Source: Megalodesulfovibrio gigas DSM 1382 = ATCC 19364
GTDB lineage: Bacteria > Desulfobacterota > Desulfovibrionia > Desulfovibrionales > Desulfovibrionaceae
DNA length: 48,273 nucleotides
Direction: 5' to 3'
Assembly: GCF_000468495.1 (NCBI RefSeq)
Contig: NC_022444.1
Coordinates: forward strand, 1,804,887-1,853,159
This document shows positions 15,773 through 28,882 of the stretch, one piece after another (position 1 is the first letter of the stretch; every line of letters starts with the position of its first letter). Made by a program: the position numbers and the translations under genes. The notes under the pieces were generated by a model. The model searched no databases. It was given only the letters and a program-made list of their open reading frames with translations, and had not been told where the DNA came from.

Positions 15773-16129
15773 CTAGCTGCCGATGGTGTTTTTGACGATT
15801 TCAAGCACCTGCTTGGGATCGAAGGGCTTGTTCACCGTGGCCACAGCCTTGCGGATGGCCAGGTGGATGCCGGAGAGCCCGCTGATGACGATGACCGGCA
15901 GTTCCTTGAACTCCGGCTTCTGGGAGAACTTGCGGTAGAACCGTGGCCCCCATTCCTCGGGCATTTCCAGATCCAGGGTGAGGAGATCCGGCTTTTCGCG
16001 CTCCAGCACCTCAAGGGCCAGGCTGCCGTCGGAGGCGGAGCAGGTTTCGTAGCCGTTGTCCTTGAACAGGGAGGTCAGGAACTCCACGATGGCCGGGTCG
16101 TCATCGACGACCATGATCTTCTTGGGCAT
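15773..16129 (-). CDS. Single-domain response regulator at the end of the tmc operon
   Basis: A 118-residue CheY/DivK-like receiver. Conserved elements are the acidic pair VVDDDP near the N-terminus, the phospho-accepting aspartate in LLTLDLEMP, the serine in VIVISGLSG and the lysine in TVNKPFD. It has no output domain, so it must act by protein contact. It lies 11 bp after tmcA in the same operon, so its amount follows that of the Tmc complex. The kinases encoded 5-13 kb away on the other strand are natural partners, but that pairing is inferred. GGAG precedes the ATG at 16129. Confidence 0.85.
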   Translation of the reverse strand: MPKKIMVVDDDPAIVEFLTSLFKDNGYETCSASDGSLALEVLEREKPDLLTLDLEMPEEWGPRFYRKFSQKPEFKELPVIVISGLSGIHLAIRKAVATVNKPFDPKQVLEIVKNTIGS

Positions 16130-16140
16130 GGCGTACTCCG

Positions 16141-16554
16141 TTACTCCTGGGCGGTTGGGGCGTGGCACTGGCCGCAGGCGAGGGGACCCTTGCCTGTTTT
16201 TTCATGGCAGCCCACGCACTGCAGGTGGTAGGCGCGGCGCAGGGGCGTTTTGTGCTGCAGCTTGGGGTCCGCGGCGGGGTTGGCGGCGTGGCAGTCGGCG
16301 CAGGGGGTGCCTTCGGAGGTGTTGGCAGGGTCCATCTTGCCGTCGGTCTCGCCGTGGTGGCAGGCGCCGCAGTCTTCGAGCTTGGCCTTTTCGTTGTGGG
16401 CGTCATGCTCGAACTTGGCCGCCGGCCGCTGGGCCTTGGGGAAGGGATCGCGGTTCACGACCACCATGTCGGACTGCGAAAACGCCGGCAACACCCAGAC
16501 CAGCAGGCTCAGACCCAGCAGGAACAACAGCAACGGGGATGTGGTGCGACGCAT
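16141..16554 (-). CDS. tmcA: TmcA, tetraheme type II cytochrome c3
   Basis: A 137-residue periplasmic cytochrome. It has a signal peptide (1-27) and four heme-c sites: CGACH (62-66), CADCH (85-89), CVGCH (113-117) and CGQCH (127-131). Histidines at H50, H53, H67, H101 and H110 can serve as sixth ligands. In Desulfovibrio the acidic type II cytochrome c3 takes electrons from the type I cytochrome c3/hydrogenase pool and hands them to the membrane-bound TmcBCD. The start at 16554 has a GGGAGGGG site within the last codons of tmcB, 2 bp upstream. Confidence 0.92.
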   Translation of the reverse strand: MRRTTSPLLLFLLGLSLLVWVLPAFSQSDMVVVNRDPFPKAQRPAAKFEHDAHNEKAKLEDCGACHHGETDGKMDPANTSEGTPCADCHAANPAADPKLQHKTPLRRAYHLQCVGCHEKTGKGPLACGQCHAPTAQE

Positions 16555-16556
16555 GG

Positions 16557-17891
16557 CTATTCCCCTCCCCCGGCATCGGCCGGCCGTTCCATGTGCTTGT
16601 AGATGATGTCGCCCAGGAAGTAGATGTGCATGTCAAGCTCAAAGTGCTTGATGATGTCTTCCAGGCCGCCATGGCAGTTGTGACAGGGGGCAATGAGCGT
16701 GTGCACGCCCGTGGCCTTGAGCTGCTCGGCTTTGATCTTGTTGCCGATGACGCGGACCTTCTTGAATGGCGGGCCGCAGTTGATGACGCCGCCGCCGGCG
16801 CAGCAGCAGTAGTTGTGTTCGCGGTTGGGGGTCATTTCCACCACGTCTTCGCAAATGTGGTGGACCACATCGCGCAGCTTGTCCATGAGGCCACGGCCGC
16901 GGATGATGTTGCAGGGGTCGTGGATGGTCACGGTGCCGGGATGCTTGCTGGCCATGCGGATCTTGCCGCTTTCCAGCAGGTCCCAGAAGAATTCCACGGA
17001 GTGCACCACTGGCACGGGAGGCACTTTCCAGCCCAGCCAGCGGTTGGCCACGTCGCACACGGCGCGGAAGGCGTGTCCGCATTCACCCATGACAATGCGC
17101 TTGACCCGCAGGCGCTGCGCGGTTTCGTAATGGGCGCGTTCCACACGGGACATGACTTCGGCATCGCCGCTGAACATGGCCATGTTGGAGTTGTCCCAGC
17201 CTGGGGTGGCGGGCATGGTCCAGTCCAGACCGGCGGCATTGAAGATGGCCGCGGCCTGGTAGATGAGCTGGGTGCGGAACTTGGGCTCCGGCGCAATGAC
17301 GGAGTACATGAAGTCCGCGCCTTCCTTTTCCAGGGGGATGCGCAGCGTGGGGAATTCTTCCCGGGCTTCGTCCTCCTGCCACATCAGGGAGTCGATCCAC
17401 TCGTCATCCTTGACCCACATCTGGTTCAGGGTGGCGGCGTGGGAGTGGGCGGTATCCTGGATGTACTGCGGGGTTACGCCCAGCTTGTGACAGATGCGGC
17501 GCACCACGCTGATGATGTATGCCGTATCGATGCCCAAGGGGCAGTAATGCATGCAGCGGCGGCACAGGTTGCATTCCGTATAGGCGATCTGCGCGAACTG
17601 CTGCAGTTGCTGTTTGCTGACGTCGCCGTCGGCCTTGAGGATCTCCCACATGGTCTGACGGACCTTGCCCACGGGGGAGTAGCTGGGGTCGCCATCGTGC
17701 GACATATAGTAATGGCAGGCCTTGGCGCACAAGCCGCAGCGCATGCAGGTTTCGGCGTAGGTCTTCAGGCGCGCCCCGGTTTCGCTGGCCAGCACACCCT
17801 TGATGATGGAGCGGATGCGGGATTGCTCCAGGCGGTTGAGCCCGCGTTGGATCCCGGCGTCGTCTATGAGCCTGTCGGCAATGGTGCTCAT
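16557..17891 (-). CDS. tmcB: TmcB, CCG-domain iron-sulfur subunit
   Basis: A 444-residue HdrD-like cytoplasmic subunit. Two [4Fe-4S] motifs come first: C49/C52/C55/C59 and C107/C110/C113/C117 followed by Pro. Two CCG-type cysteine motifs follow: HDPCNIIRG with YCCCAGGG, and APCHNCHGG near the C-terminus, as in heterodisulfide reductase catalytic subunits. In the Tmc complex it is thought to pass electrons between the membrane subunit and a cytoplasmic acceptor that is still debated. AAGGAG lies upstream of the ATG at 17891. Flanked by tmcC (17 bp away) and tmcA (2 bp away). Confidence 0.92.
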   Translation of the reverse strand: MSTIADRLIDDAGIQRGLNRLEQSRIRSIIKGVLASETGARLKTYAETCMRCGLCAKACHYYMSHDGDPSYSPVGKVRQTMWEILKADGDVSKQQLQQFAQIAYTECNLCRRCMHYCPLGIDTAYIISVVRRICHKLGVTPQYIQDTAHSHAATLNQMWVKDDEWIDSLMWQEDEAREEFPTLRIPLEKEGADFMYSVIAPEPKFRTQLIYQAAAIFNAAGLDWTMPATPGWDNSNMAMFSGDAEVMSRVERAHYETAQRLRVKRIVMGECGHAFRAVCDVANRWLGWKVPPVPVVHSVEFFWDLLESGKIRMASKHPGTVTIHDPCNIIRGRGLMDKLRDVVHHICEDVVEMTPNREHNYCCCAGGGVINCGPPFKKVRVIGNKIKAEQLKATGVHTLIAPCHNCHGGLEDIIKHFELDMHIYFLGDIIYKHMERPADAGGGE

Positions 17892-17908: not shown

Positions 17909-18568
17909 TTACCAGTCGTTGGCGTGACGAACGCCGCCGAATTCGCTGCCCGTGTACGCCCGGCTGAAGAGCCCAAAGAGCATGTGCGAGAGCCTGGTGA
18001 ACGGGATGGCGACGAGCATCAGCTCGCCGGACAGGATGTGCAGCGTGGTCATGACCAGATTCGGCCCCACGTGATGATACGCCAGCACGCCGGTGAGGAA
18101 CGGCAGGCACGCGATGATGAGCACCAGCCAGTCCTGCCCGCTGGTGACAAACCGCACCTCCGGCTTCATGAGCCGGCGCAGGGCGAAAAACGCGCAGCAC
18201 ACCACCACCACCATGGCCACGATGTCCGTCACCATTTCTGGTGGCGACCACCACGAGAAGCCGTGGAACTGTTCCACCAGCACCACATGGCCCAGCACCA
18301 CCAGCGGCAGCAGAATGAGCCCGATGTGGAAGACAAAGGTGGCGATGGTTTCCAACGGGTTTTCTTTCCACCCCAGCGAGCCGAAGGGCGTGAACCAGTG
18401 CGCCAGGGACCGCAGACCGAACTTCCAGCTCATGTACGCCAGGGCCTGCCCGTCTTTTTCCTTGGCCAGATTGTACATGCGGACAAGACGGTACAGGGAG
18501 CCGAATACAAAAATCGCCGCCGCCGCCCATGCCAGGGGGCCGACAGCCAATGCATACAACTGTTCCAT
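17909..18568 (-). CDS. tmcC: TmcC, membrane cytochrome b-like subunit
   Basis: A 219-residue integral membrane protein with five likely spans: about 7-27, 68-90, 107-128, 142-165 and 177-200. It resembles the NarI/DsrM gamma subunit fold. Histidines in or near the spans (FHIGLILL, GHVVLV, LAYHHVG, LHILSGE) are candidates for heme b ligation. Its expected job is electron transfer across the membrane between TmcA outside and TmcB inside. Start at 18568 with GGGAGG 6-7 bases upstream; the longer frame upstream overlaps tmcD and is rejected. Confidence 0.9.
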   Translation of the reverse strand: MEQLYALAVGPLAWAAAAIFVFGSLYRLVRMYNLAKEKDGQALAYMSWKFGLRSLAHWFTPFGSLGWKENPLETIATFVFHIGLILLPLVVLGHVVLVEQFHGFSWWSPPEMVTDIVAMVVVVCCAFFALRRLMKPEVRFVTSGQDWLVLIIACLPFLTGVLAYHHVGPNLVMTTLHILSGELMLVAIPFTRLSHMLFGLFSRAYTGSEFGGVRHANDW

Positions 18569-18591
18569 GGAATCCTCCCTTGGACCGTGCC

Positions 18592-19851
18592 CTACGCTTT
18601 GAAGGACGAAATGTGATCCACGATGCGCAGGCATGCGCCGCCGGAAACCGCCCGGATGAGCACTTTTTCCCCGCTGGGGTCAAAGACCGGAGGCCAGACC
18701 TTGTCGAACCATTCCTTGTACACTTTGTCGTCCAGGACGATGGTCTGGCGGCCGTGCTTTTCCACCGCCGCGGCCACGCGCTTGCCATCCGGCGAAAACA
18801 CCGGCGGCCAGGCCATGTCGTAGCGGCCAGTCCAGGCCGTGCCGTCCACCACCACGCGGAAGCGGGTGTTGCTCTCGTTGGCCAGACAGGCTGCCCGGCC
18901 AGTGGGGCTGAGCACCAGATCCGTCACCACGGGCCACGTCTGGTTCCAGGGCGTGCCGTTCACCGCCACGGTGAATTCGCCGAATTTCGGCGCCACAATG
19001 GCGGCCAGGGTGCGGCCGTCACGGGAATAGGCGGGCTGCCAGAGCTGATGGAAGGTGGGCTCCCAGCGGAAGCCGCCACGATGCGCCAGCCCCCACTTGC
19101 CGCCGGTGCGCACCGGGGCCAGCACTTCGCCGGTGTTGGGATCGAAGAACGGTTCCCACACACACTGATACGTGGTGGTCCAGGGGCGACCTTCTTCTAT
19201 GATGCCATAGTCATACAGCGAGAACCGGGCCGCTGCGGCCACGCGCTCGCCGGCGGCGTCGAAGGCCGGGCCCCAGCAGTTGACGAAATTCGAGCCCCAG
19301 GGCTCGCCGTCCACCGCCACGGAGAAGACGCCTTTCTGGTAGCCTTCGATGTCCGCCTGCCCCAGGGAGATGGTCTGCACCACGGCAGCGCTGTGTGCGC
19401 CGTCGCGACTCAGAACAAACTGGTTGGCGTTTTCATACAGGGTTTCCCAGGGGGCGTCGTCCACGGCGATGCCGTATTCGCCGTCCTGCTGGATGCAGAT
19501 GGCCAGACGGCTGCCGTCCTGGCTCCACATGGGATTCCACACAAAGGCGAAGGTGTTTTCCCAGGGGGCGTCGTCCACAGCCGCTGTCCATTCACCGTCA
19601 GTCTGGACAAAGGCCATGAGTCGGCCGTCGGGGAGGAACCTGGGCATCCAGAGTTTCTCGAACACGTTTTCCCAGGCTTGCCCGTTGACGCACGCCGTGG
19701 CGCCATCATCGGAGACGGCAGCCATGGCCACACGCTCCCCATCCGGGGAGAAGTACGGTTCCTCCAGCCAATTGTAATCACGGGCGCAGGCGTGCAAATC
19801 GCACAGACTGCGCGCGCCTGTTTCAAAATCCCAGGCATCGCTTTGGGGCAT
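18592..19851 (-). CDS. tmcD: TmcD, Trp-rich beta-propeller-like subunit
   Basis: A 419-residue soluble protein with no signal peptide or membrane span. It is built from about nine repeats of a strand-turn-strand pattern, such as FSPDGERVAMAA, FLPDGRLMAFVQ, WSQDGSRLAICI, YSRDGRTLAAIV and FSPDGKRVAAAV. Each is followed by a DDAPWE- or NGTPWN-like turn with a conserved tryptophan. This WD40-like architecture matches TmcD, a cytoplasmic subunit whose exact role is not settled. It is the first gene of the operon here, preceded by a sigma-54 promoter about 60 bp upstream of the start. AAGGAG precedes the ATG. Confidence 0.88.
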   Translation of the reverse strand: MPQSDAWDFETGARSLCDLHACARDYNWLEEPYFSPDGERVAMAAVSDDGATACVNGQAWENVFEKLWMPRFLPDGRLMAFVQTDGEWTAAVDDAPWENTFAFVWNPMWSQDGSRLAICIQQDGEYGIAVDDAPWETLYENANQFVLSRDGAHSAAVVQTISLGQADIEGYQKGVFSVAVDGEPWGSNFVNCWGPAFDAAGERVAAAARFSLYDYGIIEEGRPWTTTYQCVWEPFFDPNTGEVLAPVRTGGKWGLAHRGGFRWEPTFHQLWQPAYSRDGRTLAAIVAPKFGEFTVAVNGTPWNQTWPVVTDLVLSPTGRAACLANESNTRFRVVVDGTAWTGRYDMAWPPVFSPDGKRVAAAVEKHGRQTIVLDDKVYKEWFDKVWPPVFDPSGEKVLIRAVSGGACLRIVDHISSFKA

Positions 19852-20044: not shown

Positions 20045-21370
20045 TTATGCGTCAGCACCAGTGCGCAGGATGCGCCGCAGGGTGTCTTTTGAGATGCCAA
20101 GCTCCCGGCAGGTGGCCATTTTCTTGCCGCCGTTGCGTTGCAATGCTTCCATAGCTGCCTGATATTTAATGGATTTCAACTTTCCATCCGGCTTGAGGGA
20201 AAAGTGGTGCGAATCTGGCGGCAGCAGGTATTCCGGGAGGTGGTCCACCTGGATGTACCCTTTGCGGCACAGGATGAATGCATATTCGATGATGTTCTCC
20301 AGCTCACGCACGTTGCCTGGGAAGCGATGGCGCATCAACAGCTGATAGACATCTTCTGACACGCCATGGATGTCCATCCCCTTGATGCAATTGTTGCGGT
20401 TGACGAAGTGGGAGATCAGCAACGGGATGTCTTCAGGGCGCTCGGCCAGGGACGGCAGGCGTATCTGCACCACATTCAGGCGGTAGAACAGATCGTCACG
20501 AAAGCGTCCCGTGTCCACCATGCGTTGCAGTTCCTTGTTTGTGGCGGCGATAACGCGCGCTTCCGTGCGCAGGCTTTTGGTGGAGCCCAGGGGCTCGAAG
20601 CTGCGCTCCTGCAGCACCCGCAGGATCTTCACCTGCAGTTGCAGGGGCATATCCCCGATTTCATCCAGAAAGATGGTGCCTGTGCCAGCCAGCTGAAAGC
20701 GGCCGGGTTTGTCGGTCTTGGCGTCGGTGAATGCGCCGGCCTTGTAGCCGAACAGCTCGGATTCCAGGAGATTTTCCGGCAGCGCCCCGCAGTTCACGGC
20801 CACGAACGGCCCCTGCTTGCGTGCGGAAAGATTGTGGATGGCCCTGGCGAAAAGCTCCTTGCCCGTGCCGGATTCTCCCAGCAGCAGCACCGAGGCCTCG
20901 CTTTCGGCAATCTGGGGCAGGATTTGCAGAATGCGTATCAGTGCCTGGGACTTGGTGACAATGTCATCCAGGGTGTAGCGGCCCTCCAGCTTCTGGCGCA
21001 TGAGCTGAATGGCCGTGATGTCCCGAAAAGTCTCCACGCCGCCCACCACCTGCCCGGTGGCGTCGCGCAGCGGTGCAGCACTGATGGATACCGAGAGCTT
21101 GGAGCCGTCCGGCTTCACAATGTATATGGATTTATTGCACAGGCTGCGTTCCGTCTCCAGGCATTCGCGAATGGCGCATGCACCGTCGCAAATGCTGGAG
21201 TGGAATACTTCCCAGCACTTGCGGCCCATGGCTTCCAGGGTCGATACCCCGGTGATGCGCTCCGCCGCGCGGTTGAAAAAGGTGATGTTCCAATCCAGAT
21301 CAACGGTAAACACGCCGTCGGCAATGGAATTCATGACGGCATCGCACGAGATGTGTTTGGGAAGGGTCAT
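20045..21370 (-). CDS. Sigma-54-dependent transcriptional activator with Cys-rich PAS domain
   Basis: A 441-residue activator. The N-terminal PAS domain (~10-120) carries a cysteine cluster C52, C61, C65, C70, C78. A sigma-54 AAA+ domain (~135-365) has Walker A GESGTGKE (165-172) and Walker B TIFLDEIGD (232-240). A Fis-type helix-turn-helix closes the protein (CRELGISKDTLRRILR). The sigma-54 contact loop reads GAFTDA (212-217) where GAFTGA is usual. It has no receiver domain, so it senses directly through PAS, perhaps redox or metal. It probably controls the flanking tmc and kinase operons, both of which have sigma-54 promoters. Good GGGAG site before the ATG at 21370. Confidence 0.92.
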   Translation of the reverse strand: MTLPKHISCDAVMNSIADGVFTVDLDWNITFFNRAAERITGVSTLEAMGRKCWEVFHSSICDGACAIRECLETERSLCNKSIYIVKPDGSKLSVSISAAPLRDATGQVVGGVETFRDITAIQLMRQKLEGRYTLDDIVTKSQALIRILQILPQIAESEASVLLLGESGTGKELFARAIHNLSARKQGPFVAVNCGALPENLLESELFGYKAGAFTDAKTDKPGRFQLAGTGTIFLDEIGDMPLQLQVKILRVLQERSFEPLGSTKSLRTEARVIAATNKELQRMVDTGRFRDDLFYRLNVVQIRLPSLAERPEDIPLLISHFVNRNNCIKGMDIHGVSEDVYQLLMRHRFPGNVRELENIIEYAFILCRKGYIQVDHLPEYLLPPDSHHFSLKPDGKLKSIKYQAAMEALQRNGGKKMATCRELGISKDTLRRILRTGADA

Positions 21371-21667: not shown

Positions 21668-24007
21668 ATGTCCGGGGTTACGTCAGGGTCCATGTTTTCG
21701 TCCATCAGCCACAGCCTGGCCGGCAAGCTAGTGGTGGCCAATGGCGTGTTGCTGCTGGGCAGTGTGGCCTTGCTGACGTGGGCGGCCATGATCAACCAGC
21801 AGGAGCTTGGCAACCGGGCGGCCCTGGATGGCGCGGAACGGCTCTCCACCACTGTGAAGCTCGGGCTGCATTATGCCATGATGCTCAATTCCCGGGACGA
21901 CATCTCCCAGATTGTGGCCAACATTGCCCGCCAACCCGAAATTCTGGCCGTGCGCGTGTACAACAAGGACGGCGCCATCAAGTTTTCCAACAAGCCCGAA
22001 GAGGTGGATACCGTGGCCGGCATGCGGGAGCCTGCCTGCGCTCCCTGCCACGCCTCGGCCACGCCGCGCACCATCCTGAGCGTGATGGAGCGCACGCGGA
22101 TGGCAGAGGACGAAACCGGCCGCAGCATCGGCATGCTCACGCCCATTGAGAACGAGCCGGGCTGCAGCGAGGGGTGCCACTTTCATCCTGCGGACACCAA
22201 AATCCTCGGCGCCATAGACATCGTCCTCTCCCAGGGGACTTCGGACGAGGAGGTGCAGGCCCTGGGCCGGCGCATGCTGCTGTTTTCCGCCGGCGTGTTC
22301 CTGGCAGTTTCCGGTCTGTTGCTGTTTTTCATGGGCCAGTACGTCAACCGGCCCATCCGGGCGCTCATCCAGACCACCCGCGGCATTGCCCGTGGGGAGG
22401 AACCCCCGGTGCCGGTGACCAGGCAGCGCGACGAGATCGGTCAGCTGGCGCAGGCCGTGGCAGACATGGGCGCGGCCATTGTGGAAAAGCAGAAGGATCT
22501 GAATCGTCAGCGCGACGAATACCAGAACCTCTTTGCCAATGTCCCGTGTTTTATCACCGTGCAAGACCGCAATTTTCGCCTGTTGCGCTACAACAGGGAA
22601 TTCAAGGAGCATTTTCATCCCCGCCCCGGCCAGCCCTGCTACAAGGCATACAAGGGCCGCAGCGAAAAGTGCCCTGTCTGCCCGGTGGAAACCACCTTCC
22701 AGACCGGCCGCTCGGCCACCAGCGAGGAAAGCGGGCTGGATTCCCAGGGCAACCTGCGCCACTGGCTGGTGACCACGGCCCCCCTGCGCGATGAGAAGGG
22801 CGAGGTGGTGGCGGCCATGGAAATGAGCCTGGACATCACCGCCCGCAAGGAGCTGGAACGCGAGGCCAAGCGCCTGGAGGAAAAATACCAGGCCATTTAC
22901 CGCACCATCCCCAGCCCGGTGTTCCTGCTGGATCTGACCGGCCTGACCGTGCTGGATTGCAACAAGAGCGCCGAAACCGTGTACGGCATTCCGCGCAAGG
23001 ACATGCTGGGCCGCTATTTCCCGGACTTTTTTCTGCCGGACTCCCGCGGGCGCATGGCAGCGGATTTGCGCGTGTGCAAATCCATAGATCGCGCGCCGCA
23101 GCTGGTGCCGGACGGCCGTACCCTGTACGTGGCCATGCTGGCCACGCCGGTGGAGATTGGCGGAACCCACGTGCTGCTCATCACCGTCACGGACATCACC
23201 CGCCGGCTGGAGGCGGAACAGCAACTGGTGCATGCCGGCAAGATGGCCACCCTGGGCGAGATGGCGGCCGGCGTGGCCCACGAGCTCAATCAGCCGCTGA
23301 CGGTCATCAAGGGCGCAGCCTCCTACTTTTTGAAGAAGATTCGCCGCGGCGAGACCGTGGCCCCGGACGTGCTGGCCGACCTCTCCCAGGAGATGGACAG
23401 CCACGTGGACCGCGCCTCGCGCATCATCAATCATTTGCGGGAATTCGGCCGTCGTCCGGAAATGGAGCTCATGGAAGTGGACGTGGGCGAGGTGCTCTTG
23501 CGCTCCCTGGAGATGTTCCGCCAGCAACTGGCCCTGCGGCAGATCAAGGTGGAGCTGGACGTGTCTCCCAACGTGCCCAAGGTGATGGGCGATGCCGGCC
23601 GGCTGGAGCAGGTGTTCGTGAACATGCTCATGAATGCCCGGGACGCCATCGAAGAAAAGTTCCAGGGGGAAAAATCCCGCACCCTGCGCGAGTCTGGCTC
23701 TGGCGAAGAAAAACTGATATCCATTGTCGCCAGGGACTGCCACGGGTGGGTGCATATTCGCGTGTCAGACACCGGTGGCGGCGTGCCCGCGGGCGTGCAG
23801 GGCCGGATATTTGAGCCTTTTTTCACAACCAAGGCCACAGGCAAAGGCACCGGGCTGGGGTTGTCCATCAGTTACGGGATTGTCCAGGACTGCGGCGGGG
23901 AGATCTTCCTGGAGCGTTCCGGGCCGGAAGGCTCCACGTTCCTGGTGATTCTGCCATCCCCCGAAGCCACAGCCTGCGCCCTCCCGGAGGAGTCGTCCAA
24001 TGGTTGA
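21668..24007 (+). CDS. Sensor histidine kinase with periplasmic heme-c motif
   Basis: A 779-residue kinase: TM1 (~20-41), periplasmic sensor (~42-203), TM2 (~204-224), HAMP, PAS-1 (~285-395), PAS-2 (~405-510), HisKA with H538 in GVAHELNQP, and an ATPase domain (NMLMNARDAI, DTGGGVP, GTGLGLSI). The periplasmic part holds a heme-c motif CAPCH (124-128) and a second, unusual C-x3-C-H (C166, C170, H171). PAS-1 has C324, C335 and C338. It likely senses redox state or gas through heme, as the DcrA chemoreceptor does. Start at 21668: AGGAGC precedes it and it lies downstream of the sigma-54 promoter. It overlaps the next gene by 8 bases. Confidence 0.9.
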   Translation: MSGVTSGSMFSSISHSLAGKLVVANGVLLLGSVALLTWAAMINQQELGNRAALDGAERLSTTVKLGLHYAMMLNSRDDISQIVANIARQPEILAVRVYNKDGAIKFSNKPEEVDTVAGMREPACAPCHASATPRTILSVMERTRMAEDETGRSIGMLTPIENEPGCSEGCHFHPADTKILGAIDIVLSQGTSDEEVQALGRRMLLFSAGVFLAVSGLLLFFMGQYVNRPIRALIQTTRGIARGEEPPVPVTRQRDEIGQLAQAVADMGAAIVEKQKDLNRQRDEYQNLFANVPCFITVQDRNFRLLRYNREFKEHFHPRPGQPCYKAYKGRSEKCPVCPVETTFQTGRSATSEESGLDSQGNLRHWLVTTAPLRDEKGEVVAAMEMSLDITARKELEREAKRLEEKYQAIYRTIPSPVFLLDLTGLTVLDCNKSAETVYGIPRKDMLGRYFPDFFLPDSRGRMAADLRVCKSIDRAPQLVPDGRTLYVAMLATPVEIGGTHVLLITVTDITRRLEAEQQLVHAGKMATLGEMAAGVAHELNQPLTVIKGAASYFLKKIRRGETVAPDVLADLSQEMDSHVDRASRIINHLREFGRRPEMELMEVDVGEVLLRSLEMFRQQLALRQIKVELDVSPNVPKVMGDAGRLEQVFVNMLMNARDAIEEKFQGEKSRTLRESGSGEEKLISIVARDCHGWVHIRVSDTGGGVPAGVQGRIFEPFFTTKATGKGTGLGLSISYGIVQDCGGEIFLERSGPEGSTFLVILPSPEATACALPEESSNG

Positions 24008-25229
24008 GTTGTCGTCGGAAAAAACCATCCTGCTGGTGGATGATGAAGAAGGCATCCGCAAGGTGTTGTCCCTGATCCTGCGCGATGCCGGCTACGAAGT
24101 GCACCTGGCCACTTCCGGGGAAGATGCCCTGGCGCAGCTGGAAGTCGTGCGCCCGGCCATCGTGCTGACGGACATCAAAATGCCGGGCATGGACGGCATC
24201 GAGCTGCTCACGCGCATCAAGGCCAACAATCCGGACATCGAAGTCGTCATGCTCACCGGGCACGGGGATCTGGATCTGGCCATCCAGTCCATCAAACGCG
24301 AAGCCACGGATTTTGTAACCAAACCCATCAACGAGGACGTGCTGGATATCGCCCTCACCCGCGCCCGGGAACACCTGGCCATGCGCCGGCAGCTGCGGCA
24401 ATACACCGAACACCTGGAGCGCCTGGCCCTGGAAAAAAGCCGGGAACTGGCCGCCGTGGAGCGGTTTGCCGCCGTGGGGCAGACTGCGGCATCCCTGGCC
24501 CATGCCATCAAGAACATCGCCTCCGGACTGGAAGGCGCCATCTTTCTGATGGAGTCCGGCCGCAAGGGCGACGACGCCATGCAGGAACAGGGCTTCGCCA
24601 TGCTCAAGGACAATGTGGCCGCCATCAGGCACCTGATGCAGGACTTGCTGCAGATGGGCTCGGAACGCGTCCCCCAGCGCGCCCCGTGCGACCCAGACCA
24701 GCCGGCCCTGGAAGTGGCCTCCCTGCTGCGCCACAAGGCCCTGGAGGCCGGCGTGGAGCTGACGGTGGAGGCCGGCGCCGGTCGCGAGCCCATCCTCATG
24801 GACGCCAAGGCCATTCACCAGTGCCTCATGAATCTGGTGGGCAACGCCATCGAGGCCGCGGCCATCCCCTTCAAGGGCGTGCGCCCCGTGGAAGCCTGCG
24901 TGCGGGAAGTGCGGCTCACCACCAGCCGGCAAGGGCGCTTCATCTGCTACCGCATCTCGGATACCGGCCCCGGCGTGATGGAAGAGGCCCGGGAGCGGCT
25001 CTTCGCCGCCTTCGCCACGGGCAAGGCCACGGGCACCGGCGTGGGGCTGATGGCCACCAAGCGCATTGTGGAGGCCCACGGCGGCACCATCGAGCTGGAA
25101 AACGCCGGCCCCGACGGCGCCACCTTTGCCCTGTGCCTGCCTGCCGCCAGCGCCAAGGGCTATTTTGTCACGGAAGCCGCCCCCGCAGGGCTGGCCGGAA
25201 CGGGGAGGTGTGCATCATGCAGCGAGTAG
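24000..25229 (+). CDS. Receiver-histidine kinase hybrid (REC then kinase)
   Basis: A 409-residue soluble protein. The N-terminal receiver domain (~8-125) has LLVDDEEG, the phospho-accepting aspartate in VLTDIKMPG, TGHGD and TKPIN. A linker helix follows, then a histidine-kinase core with phospho-accepting His in SLAHAIKN and an ATPase domain (NLVGNAIEAA, DTGPGV, GTGVGLMATKRI). The layout suggests a phosphorelay element that takes a signal from another kinase. Its ATG lies inside the last codons of the heme sensor kinase, so the two are coupled. The C-terminal tail CASCSE is extra. The aldolase-side receiver at 15773 is one possible downstream partner. Confidence 0.88.
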   Translation: MVELSSEKTILLVDDEEGIRKVLSLILRDAGYEVHLATSGEDALAQLEVVRPAIVLTDIKMPGMDGIELLTRIKANNPDIEVVMLTGHGDLDLAIQSIKREATDFVTKPINEDVLDIALTRAREHLAMRRQLRQYTEHLERLALEKSRELAAVERFAAVGQTAASLAHAIKNIASGLEGAIFLMESGRKGDDAMQEQGFAMLKDNVAAIRHLMQDLLQMGSERVPQRAPCDPDQPALEVASLLRHKALEAGVELTVEAGAGREPILMDAKAIHQCLMNLVGNAIEAAAIPFKGVRPVEACVREVRLTTSRQGRFICYRISDTGPGVMEEARERLFAAFATGKATGTGVGLMATKRIVEAHGGTIELENAGPDGATFALCLPAASAKGYFVTEAAPAGLAGTGRCASCSE

Positions 25230-25756
25230 ACATCACCCCCGATGGCTGCCTGCTGGTGGATGGCCGCCCCTTTGCCCAGGATCCTCTGATCCTGCTGGGC
25301 GAGGCCGTGACCCTGGAAGAGGGCTTCACCCTGGGCAGTTGGTTCAGGATGATTCAGCTGCATACGGATTTTGTGCGGCTCAGCCAGTTTCTCCCGGCCC
25401 TGCTCCAGGCTGCAGCCCAGGGCAAAGGCCCCATGCCGCCGGATTGCGATCGGCTGGAGCTGGTGCGCACTGTGGAATTGGTGGGCCATCCCGGCCCGGC
25501 CCGATTGGATATGTACACGTCGCTCATCGGCGTCCACAACGATACCCCCAGCCAGGAGGTCCCCATCAAGCACATTCCCCCGGCGTCCCTGTGGGACGCG
25601 CCGTTCCGCCTGGGCCGTTGCCGGCACATGGTCCTGGGCGACCGCTTTGCAGAGTTCGTCTTCGAAACGGTCTTCACCCTGTTCGAGCTGATCGAAGCCG
25701 TGGCCTGGCAGCTTTCGTTCCACGGCGCTTCAGCGGAATGCGCCCTCAGGAGGTAA
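25217..25756 (+). CDS. Conserved-looking protein of the tmc regulatory operon, unknown
   Basis: A 179-residue soluble protein that I cannot assign to a named family. It starts with MQRVDITPDGCLLVDGRPF and has a helical section GSWFRMIQLHTDFVRLSQFLPALL. A central LELVRTVELVGHPGPARLDMYTSLIG stretch and a C-terminal helix (FVFETVFTLFELIEAVAWQLSFHG) follow. No membrane span, no signal peptide, few cysteines. It overlaps the preceding kinase by 13 bases and is followed after 3 bases by the Usp gene, so it is a true operon member. GGGAGGTG precedes the ATG. A role as adaptor in the signalling pathway is only a guess from position. Confidence 0.75.
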   Translation: MQRVDITPDGCLLVDGRPFAQDPLILLGEAVTLEEGFTLGSWFRMIQLHTDFVRLSQFLPALLQAAAQGKGPMPPDCDRLELVRTVELVGHPGPARLDMYTSLIGVHNDTPSQEVPIKHIPPASLWDAPFRLGRCRHMVLGDRFAEFVFETVFTLFELIEAVAWQLSFHGASAECALRR

Positions 25757-25759
25757 TAT

Positions 25760-26719
25760 ATGTTCGAGAAGATTTTGTTCGCCACCACTGCGTCCCCCAC
25801 CTGCGACGATGCCGCCAAGGTGGCCTTTGAACTGTCCAAGAAGAACAAGTCCGAACTGACGGTCTTCCACGTTTTCGGCATCCCCACCCGCGGGTTCTCC
25901 ACCTTTGCCACGGACGTGCGCACCGGCAGCGAAACCGAGGCCCAGGACCAGAACTACGTGGACCTGGTGAAGGAGGAGATGGAAACCACGTACGAAGCCC
26001 TGATGAAGGACCATCCCGGCTGCACCCTGGAAGCCGTGGTGGGCGATCCGGCCATGGAAGTGCTGCGCACGGCCCGCAAGATTGGCGCGGATCTCATCAT
26101 CATGGGCGCGCACACCCGCGCGGACGACGTGGGCGCCACCCGCCACCGCGCCGTGGCCGGCTCCACCATGCAGCGTGTGGCCCGCACGGCCCGCTGCCCG
26201 GTGCTGGTGGTCAGCCGTCCGTGTATCACCTGCTGGAGCTACTTCGCCAACATCGTGGTGGGCGTGGATTTCTCCAAGCAGTCCGGCCATGCCTTTACCT
26301 TTGCCCGCAACGTGGCCGCAGACATCGGCTGCCGTCTGCACCTCTTCCACGCCCTGGACGTGGGCAAGGAAGGCGGCGCCGTGGCCCCGGATCAGGCCTA
26401 TGTGGAAAAGAAGCTCGAAGCCGCCAAGAAGAAGATCGAAGACAAGTACATCAGCAAGATGGAAGGCTTCGACAACTACGTCATCCAGATCTGGGAAGGC
26501 GAGCCGTACGTGGAAATCCTGAAGTACGCCCGGGAAGCCAAGGCTGACCTCATCGCCATGGCCCACCACAGCAAGGACGTGGACCCGGAACAGGCCCTCA
26601 TGGGGTCCACCCTGGAACAGGTGGTGCTGCGCTCCAACTGCCCGGTGGTCAGCGTGAACCATCCGGACAAGGTGGACGTCTCCCCCTACGGGCACCGGCC
26701 GGAAACCGAAGAGGCCTAA
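25760..26719 (+). CDS. Universal stress protein with two Usp domains
   Basis: A 319-residue protein formed of two UspA folds in tandem: residues ~1-150 (starting MFEKILFATT) and ~158-312 (starting ANIVVGVDFS). The ATP-binding loop is recognisable in both: IIMGAHTRADDVG with later AGSTMQRVARTARCPVLVV, and IAMAHHSKD with MGSTLEQVVLRSNCPVVSV. Such tandem proteins often bind ATP and modulate other proteins under stress or energy limitation. It sits between signalling genes, which suggests coupling energy status to the same pathway (inference). Strong AGGAGGT site 6 bases before the ATG. Confidence 0.92.
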   Translation: MFEKILFATTASPTCDDAAKVAFELSKKNKSELTVFHVFGIPTRGFSTFATDVRTGSETEAQDQNYVDLVKEEMETTYEALMKDHPGCTLEAVVGDPAMEVLRTARKIGADLIIMGAHTRADDVGATRHRAVAGSTMQRVARTARCPVLVVSRPCITCWSYFANIVVGVDFSKQSGHAFTFARNVAADIGCRLHLFHALDVGKEGGAVAPDQAYVEKKLEAAKKKIEDKYISKMEGFDNYVIQIWEGEPYVEILKYAREAKADLIAMAHHSKDVDPEQALMGSTLEQVVLRSNCPVVSVNHPDKVDVSPYGHRPETEEA

Positions 26720-26723
26720 GCGC

Positions 26724-27125
26724 ATGGCCAACGTGCTGGTGGTGGACGACGAAGCGCATCTGCGGGTGTTCGTGAGCGCCGTCTTCCGCTCGGCCGGCCA
26801 CGAAACCGCCACAGCCAGAGACGGTGCGCAAGGATTGGAAAAAGCCAGGGAGATGCAGCCGGACTGCATCTCCCTGGACCTGATGATGCCGGAGCAGGGC
26901 GGGCTCAAAATGCTCCAGGGGCTCAAAATGGACCCAACCCTGGCGCGTATTCCCGTACTGGTCCTTTCCGCCGTCTCGGAGCCGGCCTTCCGCCATGCCG
27001 TGGCGCTGGTGGAGGCCGGCCTGGGCCGGCCCCTTGCCGAATGTGGCGCACCCGTGCTGCATGTGCACAAACCGCCAACCCCCCAAGGATTGCTGGACGC
27101 CCTGGCCCGTCTTCTGGCAGGATGA
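26724..27125 (+). CDS. Single-domain response regulator
   Basis: A 133-residue receiver without output domain. VLVVDDEAH gives the acidic pocket, the phospho-accepting aspartate is in CISLDLMMP, VLSAVSE supplies the conserved Ser/Thr, and the lysine lies in HVHKPPTP. An insertion before the last strand (VEAGLGRPLAECGAPVLHV) makes it a little longer than CheY. It begins 4 bp after the Usp gene. It is probably phosphorylated by one of the two kinase hybrids beside it or by the heme kinase, and would act by protein contact. Confidence 0.85.
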   Translation: MANVLVVDDEAHLRVFVSAVFRSAGHETATARDGAQGLEKAREMQPDCISLDLMMPEQGGLKMLQGLKMDPTLARIPVLVLSAVSEPAFRHAVALVEAGLGRPLAECGAPVLHVHKPPTPQGLLDALARLLAG

Positions 27126-27166
27126 CCCCATCAGTCGCAAACGGGAAATCTCCCGGAGGAGCACGG

Positions 27167-28882
27167 ATGCAGCAGTGTCAGACGGCCAGCGAATCCATTC
27201 TGCTGGTGGACGACGAAGCCGGCGTCCGCAAGGTGCTGGGCCTGACCCTGCGGGACATGGGCTTTTTGGTGATTGAGGCCGCCGACGGCGATCAGGCCTT
27301 GGCGCATTTTGCGTCCGTCACCGCCCAGGGGACAGCCGCGCCTCCTCCGCCGGCCATCGTGGTGACAGACGTGCGCATGCCCGGCAAAAGCGGGCTGGAA
27401 GTGCTGGAAGCCATAAAAGCCGTGGCTCCGGAAACGGAAGTGATCATCGTCACCGGTCACGGCGATATGGATCTGGCCATCAAGGGCCTGCAGTTGGGGG
27501 CGGCGGATTTTTTGCCCAAGCCTGTGAGCGATGGCGCCCTGGAAGTGGCCGTGGCCCGCGCCCTGGAACGCATCGAAACCCGTCGCCAGCTCCACGAGTA
27601 CACCTGCAACCTGGAGGCCCTGGCGCAGTCGCAGGCCTCCCGCCTGGTGGCCATGGAACGCCAGCTCGCCGCCCGGCAGGTGGTGGAGGGTCTTTCCCAG
27701 GCGTTTAGCGGCGTGGCGGCCGATCTGCAGGACGGCCTCTCCGTGCTCGACGAACTGCCCTGCTTCGTGGCCCTGCACGACCGCGACGGCCGCATCGTCA
27801 GCGTCAACCAGCGCTACCGCGAACGGCTGGGCGATCCCACCGGCGAGAGCGCCCAGGTCCGGGATGGCTGGGCCATCTACAAGGACGGGGCGACCAGAAA
27901 ACGCGCCCTGCCCGTGCCGGCCACCTTCTTTTCCGATGCCCCCCGCCGCGTGCATGAAGTGCTGCTCTGCAAGGAGGGCAACGAGATTCCCGTGGTGGTC
28001 CACACCGCGCCCATCCGCACCAGCACCGGCGAAACCGTGCTGGTGATGGAACTGGCCGTGGACATGGGCGAACTCAAGCGCCTGCAGACCGAGCTGGCCG
28101 CCACCCGCGAGCATCTGGCCTCCCTGGGGCTGGTGGTGGCGTCCCTCTCCCACGGCGTCAAGGGCCTGCTCACGGCCCTGGATGGCGCGCTGTACGCCAT
28201 GGAAGCCGGCCTGGAACGCAACGACATGCCCCGCATGCACCGCGGCTTTGAACAGACCAAGGACGTGGCTGGTCGCATCAAGACATTGATTCTGGATATC
28301 CTCTTCTGCGCCAAGCGCCGCGAGCCGGAGCGCAAAGTATTGGAATTGCGTCGCTTCGGTCGGGAGACGCTGAATATGGTGCGCGAAAAGGCCGAGCGCC
28401 TGGGCGTGCAACTGGTGCTGGACGCGCCGGAACCGTCCGACGAGTCCTCACAGCCTTCGGCCACCTTCGCAGCAGATCCCACGCTGTTGGCTGCCGCCCT
28501 GGTGAACCTGCTGGAAAACGCCATTGAGGCGTGCGCCGCCTCGCAATCGACAGCCGACGATGGCCGCGCCCGCACGGTCACCCTGCGCTGCCGGCGCGTG
28601 GACGGCAGGGTGCGCATCGACGTGCAGGATACCGGCCCCGGCATGGACGAATCCACCCGCAACAAGCTCTTCCAGGTGTTCTTCTCCACCAAGGGCAGCA
28701 ATGGCACGGGCCTGGGCCTGTTCATCACCCGCCATGCCGTGTTGGCCCACGGCGGCAGCATTGCGGTGGATTCCACCCCCGGCCAGGGCAGCTGCTTTCG
28801 CATTGAACTGCCCCTTGCTCCCGGTGACACCACGGCGCAGGACCTCTGCGAGCCGGTCTCCCTCTCCTCTCCGGCTGCGTGA
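27167..28882 (+). CDS. Second receiver-PAS-histidine kinase hybrid
   Basis: A 571-residue soluble protein. It has a receiver domain (~8-130; ILLVDDEAG, VVTDVRMPG, TGHGD, PKPVS), a linker coiled coil, and a PAS-like domain (~200-310; LPCFVALHDRDGRIVSVNQRY). The kinase core has phospho-accepting His in SLSHGVKG, and an ATPase domain follows (NLLENAIEAC, DTGPGMDE, GTGLGLFITRHAV). It is parallel in design to the hybrid at 24000 but has an added PAS. Start at 27167 chosen for GGAGGA 7 bases upstream; an ATG at 27122 overlapping the preceding stop is the alternative. Last gene of the operon, followed by a hairpin at 28896. Confidence 0.88.
   Translation: MQQCQTASESILLVDDEAGVRKVLGLTLRDMGFLVIEAADGDQALAHFASVTAQGTAAPPPPAIVVTDVRMPGKSGLEVLEAIKAVAPETEVIIVTGHGDMDLAIKGLQLGAADFLPKPVSDGALEVAVARALERIETRRQLHEYTCNLEALAQSQASRLVAMERQLAARQVVEGLSQAFSGVAADLQDGLSVLDELPCFVALHDRDGRIVSVNQRYRERLGDPTGESAQVRDGWAIYKDGATRKRALPVPATFFSDAPRRVHEVLLCKEGNEIPVVVHTAPIRTSTGETVLVMELAVDMGELKRLQTELAATREHLASLGLVVASLSHGVKGLLTALDGALYAMEAGLERNDMPRMHRGFEQTKDVAGRIKTLILDILFCAKRREPERKVLELRRFGRETLNMVREKAERLGVQLVLDAPEPSDESSQPSATFAADPTLLAAALVNLLENAIEACAASQSTADDGRARTVTLRCRRVDGRVRIDVQDTGPGMDESTRNKLFQVFFSTKGSNGTGLGLFITRHAVLAHGGSIAVDSTPGQGSCFRIELPLAPGDTTAQDLCEPVSLSSPAA

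Follow-up and report, generated by a model that had tools for sequence, protein, structure and literature searches.

The closest described relatives of the sensor domain considered here carry a single heme. In GSU0935 of Geobacter, which together with GSU0582 is represented by the PDB entries 3B42 and 3B47 and by the Pfam family PF21563, the axial ligands are His144 and Met60, the latter being bound in the reduced form, and both proteins undergo a change of spin and ligation upon reduction; DcrA senses redox and oxygen (PMC8396549). The heme Cache domains, as recently described, likewise cover one CXXCH (PMC12889525). Two-motif transducers have already been noted, i.e., GSU0591 and GSU0599 of G. 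sulfurreducens, in each of which a review counts two CX2-4CH motifs (PMC8396549); GSU0599 further figures as a two-component protein and GSU0593/0594 as a cytochrome b and c pair (PMC7726332). Their likeness to the protein reported below, namely two motifs in one signal transducer, is one of motif count alone (PMC8396549), and no study characterising them was found in the literature searched, subscription papers being outside that search. Redox sensing of this kind in sulfate reducers seems untried by anyone.

As regards electron flow in sulfate reducers, Tmc is important to D. alaskensis G20 for using H2, whereas Hmc is detrimental in this strain (PMC4215793). In the literature searched, no sensor governing the choice of the transmembrane electron route (Tmc, Hmc or Qrc) was encountered for sulfate reducers, and papers on the regulators mapped in D. 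vulgaris make no mention of tmc. A diheme sensor kinase encoded beside Tmc and Hmc genes would constitute a concrete candidate for a sensor choosing between electron routes. Judging by locus order, its counterpart in D. vulgaris should be DVU0258, a protein on which the literature search returned no paper.

The gene concerned lies at 21668..24007 on the forward strand of the window, i.e., the whole stretch of 48,273 nucleotides analysed from Megalodesulfovibrio gigas, and encodes a protein of 779 aa whose layout was established by translation, domain search and hydropathy. Along this same strand, it comprises (i) a first transmembrane helix, TM1 (residues ~16-42; 21713..21793), (ii) a predicted periplasmic diheme sCache domain (residues ~43-200; 21794..22267), delineated from topology, Pfam, structure model and fold search, (iii) a second transmembrane helix, TM2 (residues ~201-226; 22268..22345), both helices being given by hydropathy, and, from domain search, (iv) HAMP (22328..22480), (v) PAS_4 (22532..22852), (vi) PAS (22880..23194), (vii) HisKA (23252..23455) and (viii) HATPase_c (23588..23962). 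With both HisKA and HATPase_c above cut-off, the protein is a sensor histidine kinase. Two start codons are conceivable, ATG at 21668 or 21692, a difference of a few residues which leaves the sensor domain unaffected. As the initial annotation had read them, CAPCH is found at residues 124-128 (22037..22051) and CSEGCH at residues 166-171 (22163..22186 when H173 is included), 42 residues separating C124 from C166, and both motifs are periplasmic since their positions fall between the two TM helices.

The two motifs are not a product of chance, because residue shuffles of the sensor domain, which yielded a CxxCH in 0.16% of cases, produced both together in 1/20,000. Conservation across relatives is a stronger test in this respect. 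When 59 related genomes were searched with the sensor region, relatives were recovered in 29, and both motifs are kept in the 25 of 25 that were aligned; a scan of named genomes added 80 further loci, nearly all from Desulfobacterota by title. Over 106 domains, a count containing a few repeats, the first motif is invariably CX2CH, and the second occurs as CX3CH (35 domains), CX4CH (66) or CX5CH (5) and is in every instance followed by one residue and a His. Once identical domains were removed and later loci added, 124 full-length two-motif domains remained, with a median pairwise identity of 44%. The initial annotation had regarded orthologues devoid of both motifs as grounds against a heme sensor; both are present in 124/124 of these relatives. 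The sole invariant columns are C124, C127, H128, C166, C170, H171, H173, L180 and G181, seven of the nine being Cys or His of the motif region. Besides C166, C170 and H171, as originally read, the second site includes H173, an invariant member (124/124) that had been missed. The pattern used to scan the named genomes spanned residues 62-71 and biases the conservation of T62, L65, G66, Y69, A70 and M71, the motif Cys and His columns lying outside it and being unbiased; M71 (21878..21880, forward strand), a position occupied by Met in 122 of 124 two-motif domains and in all 31 one-motif domains, is nearly invariant also in the unbiased set of 25 aligned relatives. By its profile, the predicted diheme-type domain is common in Desulfobacterota, with matches in 142 of 395 sampled genomes, an upper bound as weak matches include one-motif relatives. 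Kinases dominate among the output domains and two relatives are shorter proteins; in the one of the latter that was scanned (L123:1369-2784), the diheme-type domain is associated with a GGDEF (diguanylate cyclase) output. Among the viral contigs searched, no relative of the sensor domain was found.

Structure prediction with AlphaFold2, from an alignment of 77 relatives, returned a Cache-like model of the sensor domain as a monomer without heme (pLDDT 79.3), which Foldseek and VIA-align matched to WalK (Z 14.5), CitA and other Cache domains, and Foldseek to GSU0935 (3b42; E 1.5e-4). As modelled, the sensor domain is a single Cache fold, to which GSU0935, GSU0582 and DcrA, each with one heme, are related; the second motif lies between strands 112-122 and 140-150, late in the sheet, as does the heme-motif loop of GSU0935. 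When a profile of the family was compared with all PDB sequences, GSU0935 ranked first, if weakly by sequence (E 0.0012 and 0.003); a weak match to the synaptonemal protein 6r17 was judged to be chance. The GSU0935-type family PF21563 weakly matches 12/12 tested members, the kinase itself scoring 22.4 bits, below the gathering cut-off of 27, and PF11845 weakly matches 1/12. A search of the own genome for PF21563 gave no match anywhere, the controls likewise giving none.

With GSU0935 and GSU0582, the kinase shares the Cache/PAS-like fold, the position of the heme site (at its second motif), the equivalent of Met60 (M71) and the TM-sensor-TM-HAMP layout, whereas those proteins have one heme, CX2CH spacing and a chemotaxis output, and lack any equivalent of either CAPCH or the HxH. 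With the sCache_heme/DUF3365/Tll0287-like family (PF11845), the common traits are the Cache fold, a heme motif inserted in the sheet and the fusion to HAMP and kinase, but the hallmark of that family is a single, strictly conserved CXXCH (PMC12889525), in place of which the kinase exhibits CX3CH, and all its relatives CX3-5CH, in addition to the extra motif. Should the present reading hold true, the recently named heme-Cache family would be extended from one heme to two. Receptors of the DcrA type combine one heme-c motif with an MCP output, unlike the two motifs and histidine kinase output found here. Even so, a one-motif sister domain is available in the same genome, namely the DcrA-like chemoreceptor L004 (G000:C2:410190-410885), which has the same I.NEP.C..CH......ILG context and Met but a single heme motif, CHHCH, and an MCP output. 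Comparison with such DcrA/GSU0935-type domains lends support to the original suggestion of a heme-c sensor kinase akin to DcrA.

In a profile alignment, the single motif of GSU0935 (NEQRCQSCH) falls on the second motif of the family (NEPGC...CH) and Met60 on M71; His144 and Met60 correspond to chain positions 110 and 26, position 26 being the one aligned with M71, and it is from this alignment together with the published residue numbers (PMC8396549) that we infer Met60 to be the partner of M71. When the 124 two-motif domains were aligned with 31 one-motif DcrA-like domains and two Geobacter domains, the first Cys of every one-motif CxxCH came to lie in the C166 column, and the columns of C124, C127 and H128 held no heme motif in the one-motif group. 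It follows from these two observations that the widened second motif is, by alignment, the ancestral heme site and the canonical CAPCH, absent from one-motif relatives as well as GSU0935/0582, a derived addition. This reverses the initial annotation, where CAPCH was the standard site and the second motif the doubtful one. The two-motif domains form one clade, being all located on one side of a single branch of the tree (support 98/87), and H173 accompanies the added motif. If true, this would be a case of an original heme site having widened while a second one was added. Gap placement would allow either H171 or H173 to match the ancestral proximal His; H171 is preferred as putative proximal ligand because heme-c chemistry needs a His adjacent to the Cys.

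The initial annotation had hesitated between two hemes and one heme plus a metal or disulfide site. CxxC pairs serve in general as redox switches and metal sites, and from this general role, at the level of sequence, it could be argued that the only heme sits at the ancestral second site and that C124 and C127 form a thiol/disulfide switch or a metal site. Such an arrangement is quite unlikely, as the first motif is a canonical CX2CH and H128 is invariant along with C124 and C127 in 124/124, a His that is indispensable to a heme-c motif but not to a disulfide. The converse arrangement, i.e., one heme at CAPCH as the only canonical motif, with C166, C170, H171 and H173 as a metal or disulfide site, would benefit from the two Cys and two His making four metal ligands, but looks more improbable still: in the alignments, the second motif falls on the site where heme binding by GSU0935 is proven and on the CxxCH of the 31 one-motif relatives, its spacing varies from 3 to 5, ImcH homologues conserve a CX3CH that is counted there among the atypical heme motifs (PMC6295460), and CX2-4CH has been used to list Geobacter heme transducers (PMC8396549). 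A spacing of 3, 4 or 5 would be more in keeping with a heme-c motif than with a fixed site for a disulfide or metal. Of the two options left by the initial annotation, two hemes thus appear most likely by comparison, the metal or disulfide option fitting this variable spacing less well.

Our preferred reading is that of a diheme, redox-reading Cache sensor kinase of periplasmic or membrane electron flow, which adjusts Tmc-type electron transfer, a proposal we hold with a slight lean in its favour. The kinase probably reads how reduced the outer electron carriers are. Two covalent c-type hemes would be borne by the periplasmic single-Cache domain of this transmembrane histidine kinase. Heme A would occupy the ancestral site, with C166, C170 and proximal H171, its distal ligand being M71, which would switch with redox state as Met60 does in GSU0935; heme B would occupy the added site, with C124, C127 and H128, the invariant H173 being the likeliest partner ligand. 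Heme B would probably be reduced by the periplasmic cytochrome pool or by the neighbouring membrane complex and equilibrate with heme A, where loss or gain of the M71 ligand would move the first helix and, via TM2 and HAMP, set kinase activity; together with the neighbouring receiver proteins, the kinase would then adjust Tmc-type electron transfer. The main rival to this redox reading is gas sensing, given that the signalling one-heme Cache protein of Pseudomonas azotoformans binds NO tightly and releases it slowly, like known NO sensors (PMC12889525). The signal would then be a gas bound at heme A in place of M71, NO being the likeliest and CO or O2 damage the other candidates, and the part of heme B would be confined to supplying the electrons that keep heme A ferrous. 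GSU0582 and GSU0935 do bind NO and CO, losing Met60 on binding (PMC8396549), but one-heme sensors bind NO without a second heme, electron-transfer complexes (Tmc, Hmc, Hdr-like) adjoin the kinase, and NO-detoxifying genes were not noticed in the loci read, in what was an unsystematic look; on balance we regard gas sensing as unlikely.

The surroundings of the kinase in the window are in line with redox reading. That it stands beside Tmc, as first annotated, is upheld by tmcD (18592..19851; NF045725), tmcC (17909..18634; NF045723), tmcB (16557..17891; NF045724) and tmcA, encoding the tetraheme cytochrome c3 (16141..16554; NF045722), which all pass the NCBIfam equivalog cut-offs, and a DVU0259-family response regulator (15773..16168; NF045717) also passes its NCBIfam cut-off, the five genes being on the reverse strand. 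Between tmcD and the kinase, and divergent from the latter, domain search identified a PAS-sigma54 activator-HTH regulator (20045..21370, reverse strand); near tmcD and near the kinase, the sigma-54 promoter consensus is matched at two sites, each with two mismatches, but these candidates were dismissed, the entire window containing fewer matches than chance. Downstream on the forward strand follow (i) a receiver and HATPase protein with no HisKA detected (24000..25229; domain search), (ii) a conserved hypothetical protein of 176 aa with no Pfam or NCBIfam match (25226..25756; domain search), (iii) a tandem universal stress protein (25760..26719; domain search), (iv) a receiver-like protein (26724..27125; ORF and neighbourhood comparison), the last three belonging to a conserved cassette, and (v) a receiver-PAS-HATPase protein (27041..28882; domain search) whose true start is probably near 27167. 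Of note, the two receiver-HATPase proteins (24000-25229 and 27041-28882) are conserved beside the kinase and have no Pfam HisKA match.

In relatives, a homologue of the first of these proteins (24000..25229) occurs within the DNA examined in 68/80 kinase loci, and the 176-aa protein accompanies Tmc and Hmc loci in 30/80. Tmc genes are found in 23/80 and Hmc-like genes in 8/80 (31/80 together), or 18/37 when loci of 16 kb or more are considered; about half of the long loci, few of which were read, have neither. In one locus (L062), HmcA, B, C, E and F pass equivalog cut-offs beside the same cassette, i.e., a full Hmc. Single relatives of the kinase adjoin Hdr-like or NrfD-type complexes, e.g., L070 with HdrA/B/C-like genes and L177 with genes for a tetraheme cytochrome and for HmcB-like and HmcC-like proteins. 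ORFs rich in heme motifs (four or more) are present in 23/50 kinase loci, where they are mostly TmcA/HmcA and not independent of the Tmc/Hmc count, and in 8/20 others, versus 1/20 control stretches, 17 of these 20 originating from the window's own genome. A broader and more tentative proposal, to which we would give somewhat less than even credence, is that of a separate input class. In it, a two-heme Cache domain would dock periplasmic multiheme cytochromes or the membrane complex and relay electrons from the heme where they enter to a signalling heme switched by its Met, giving the kinase a direct reading of electron pressure; throughout Desulfobacterota, this one module would control Tmc, Hmc, Hdr-like and NrfD-type complexes.

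In L176 (982-4596, 1204 aa), nine-heme cytochrome and cytochrome b561 sequence lies immediately upstream of a diheme kinase and in frame with it; because the reading frame crosses a run of N in the assembly, this apparent fusion was retained as evidence of adjacent genes only. Elsewhere, a segment of no less than 12.9 kb occurs twice, in inverted orientation and with 99.97% identity (L174 and L175; G000:C2 ~1915911-1928843 and 1995065-2008001), and each copy carries a CX5CH-type diheme sensor kinase paralogue together with a receiver-PAS-HATPase gene.
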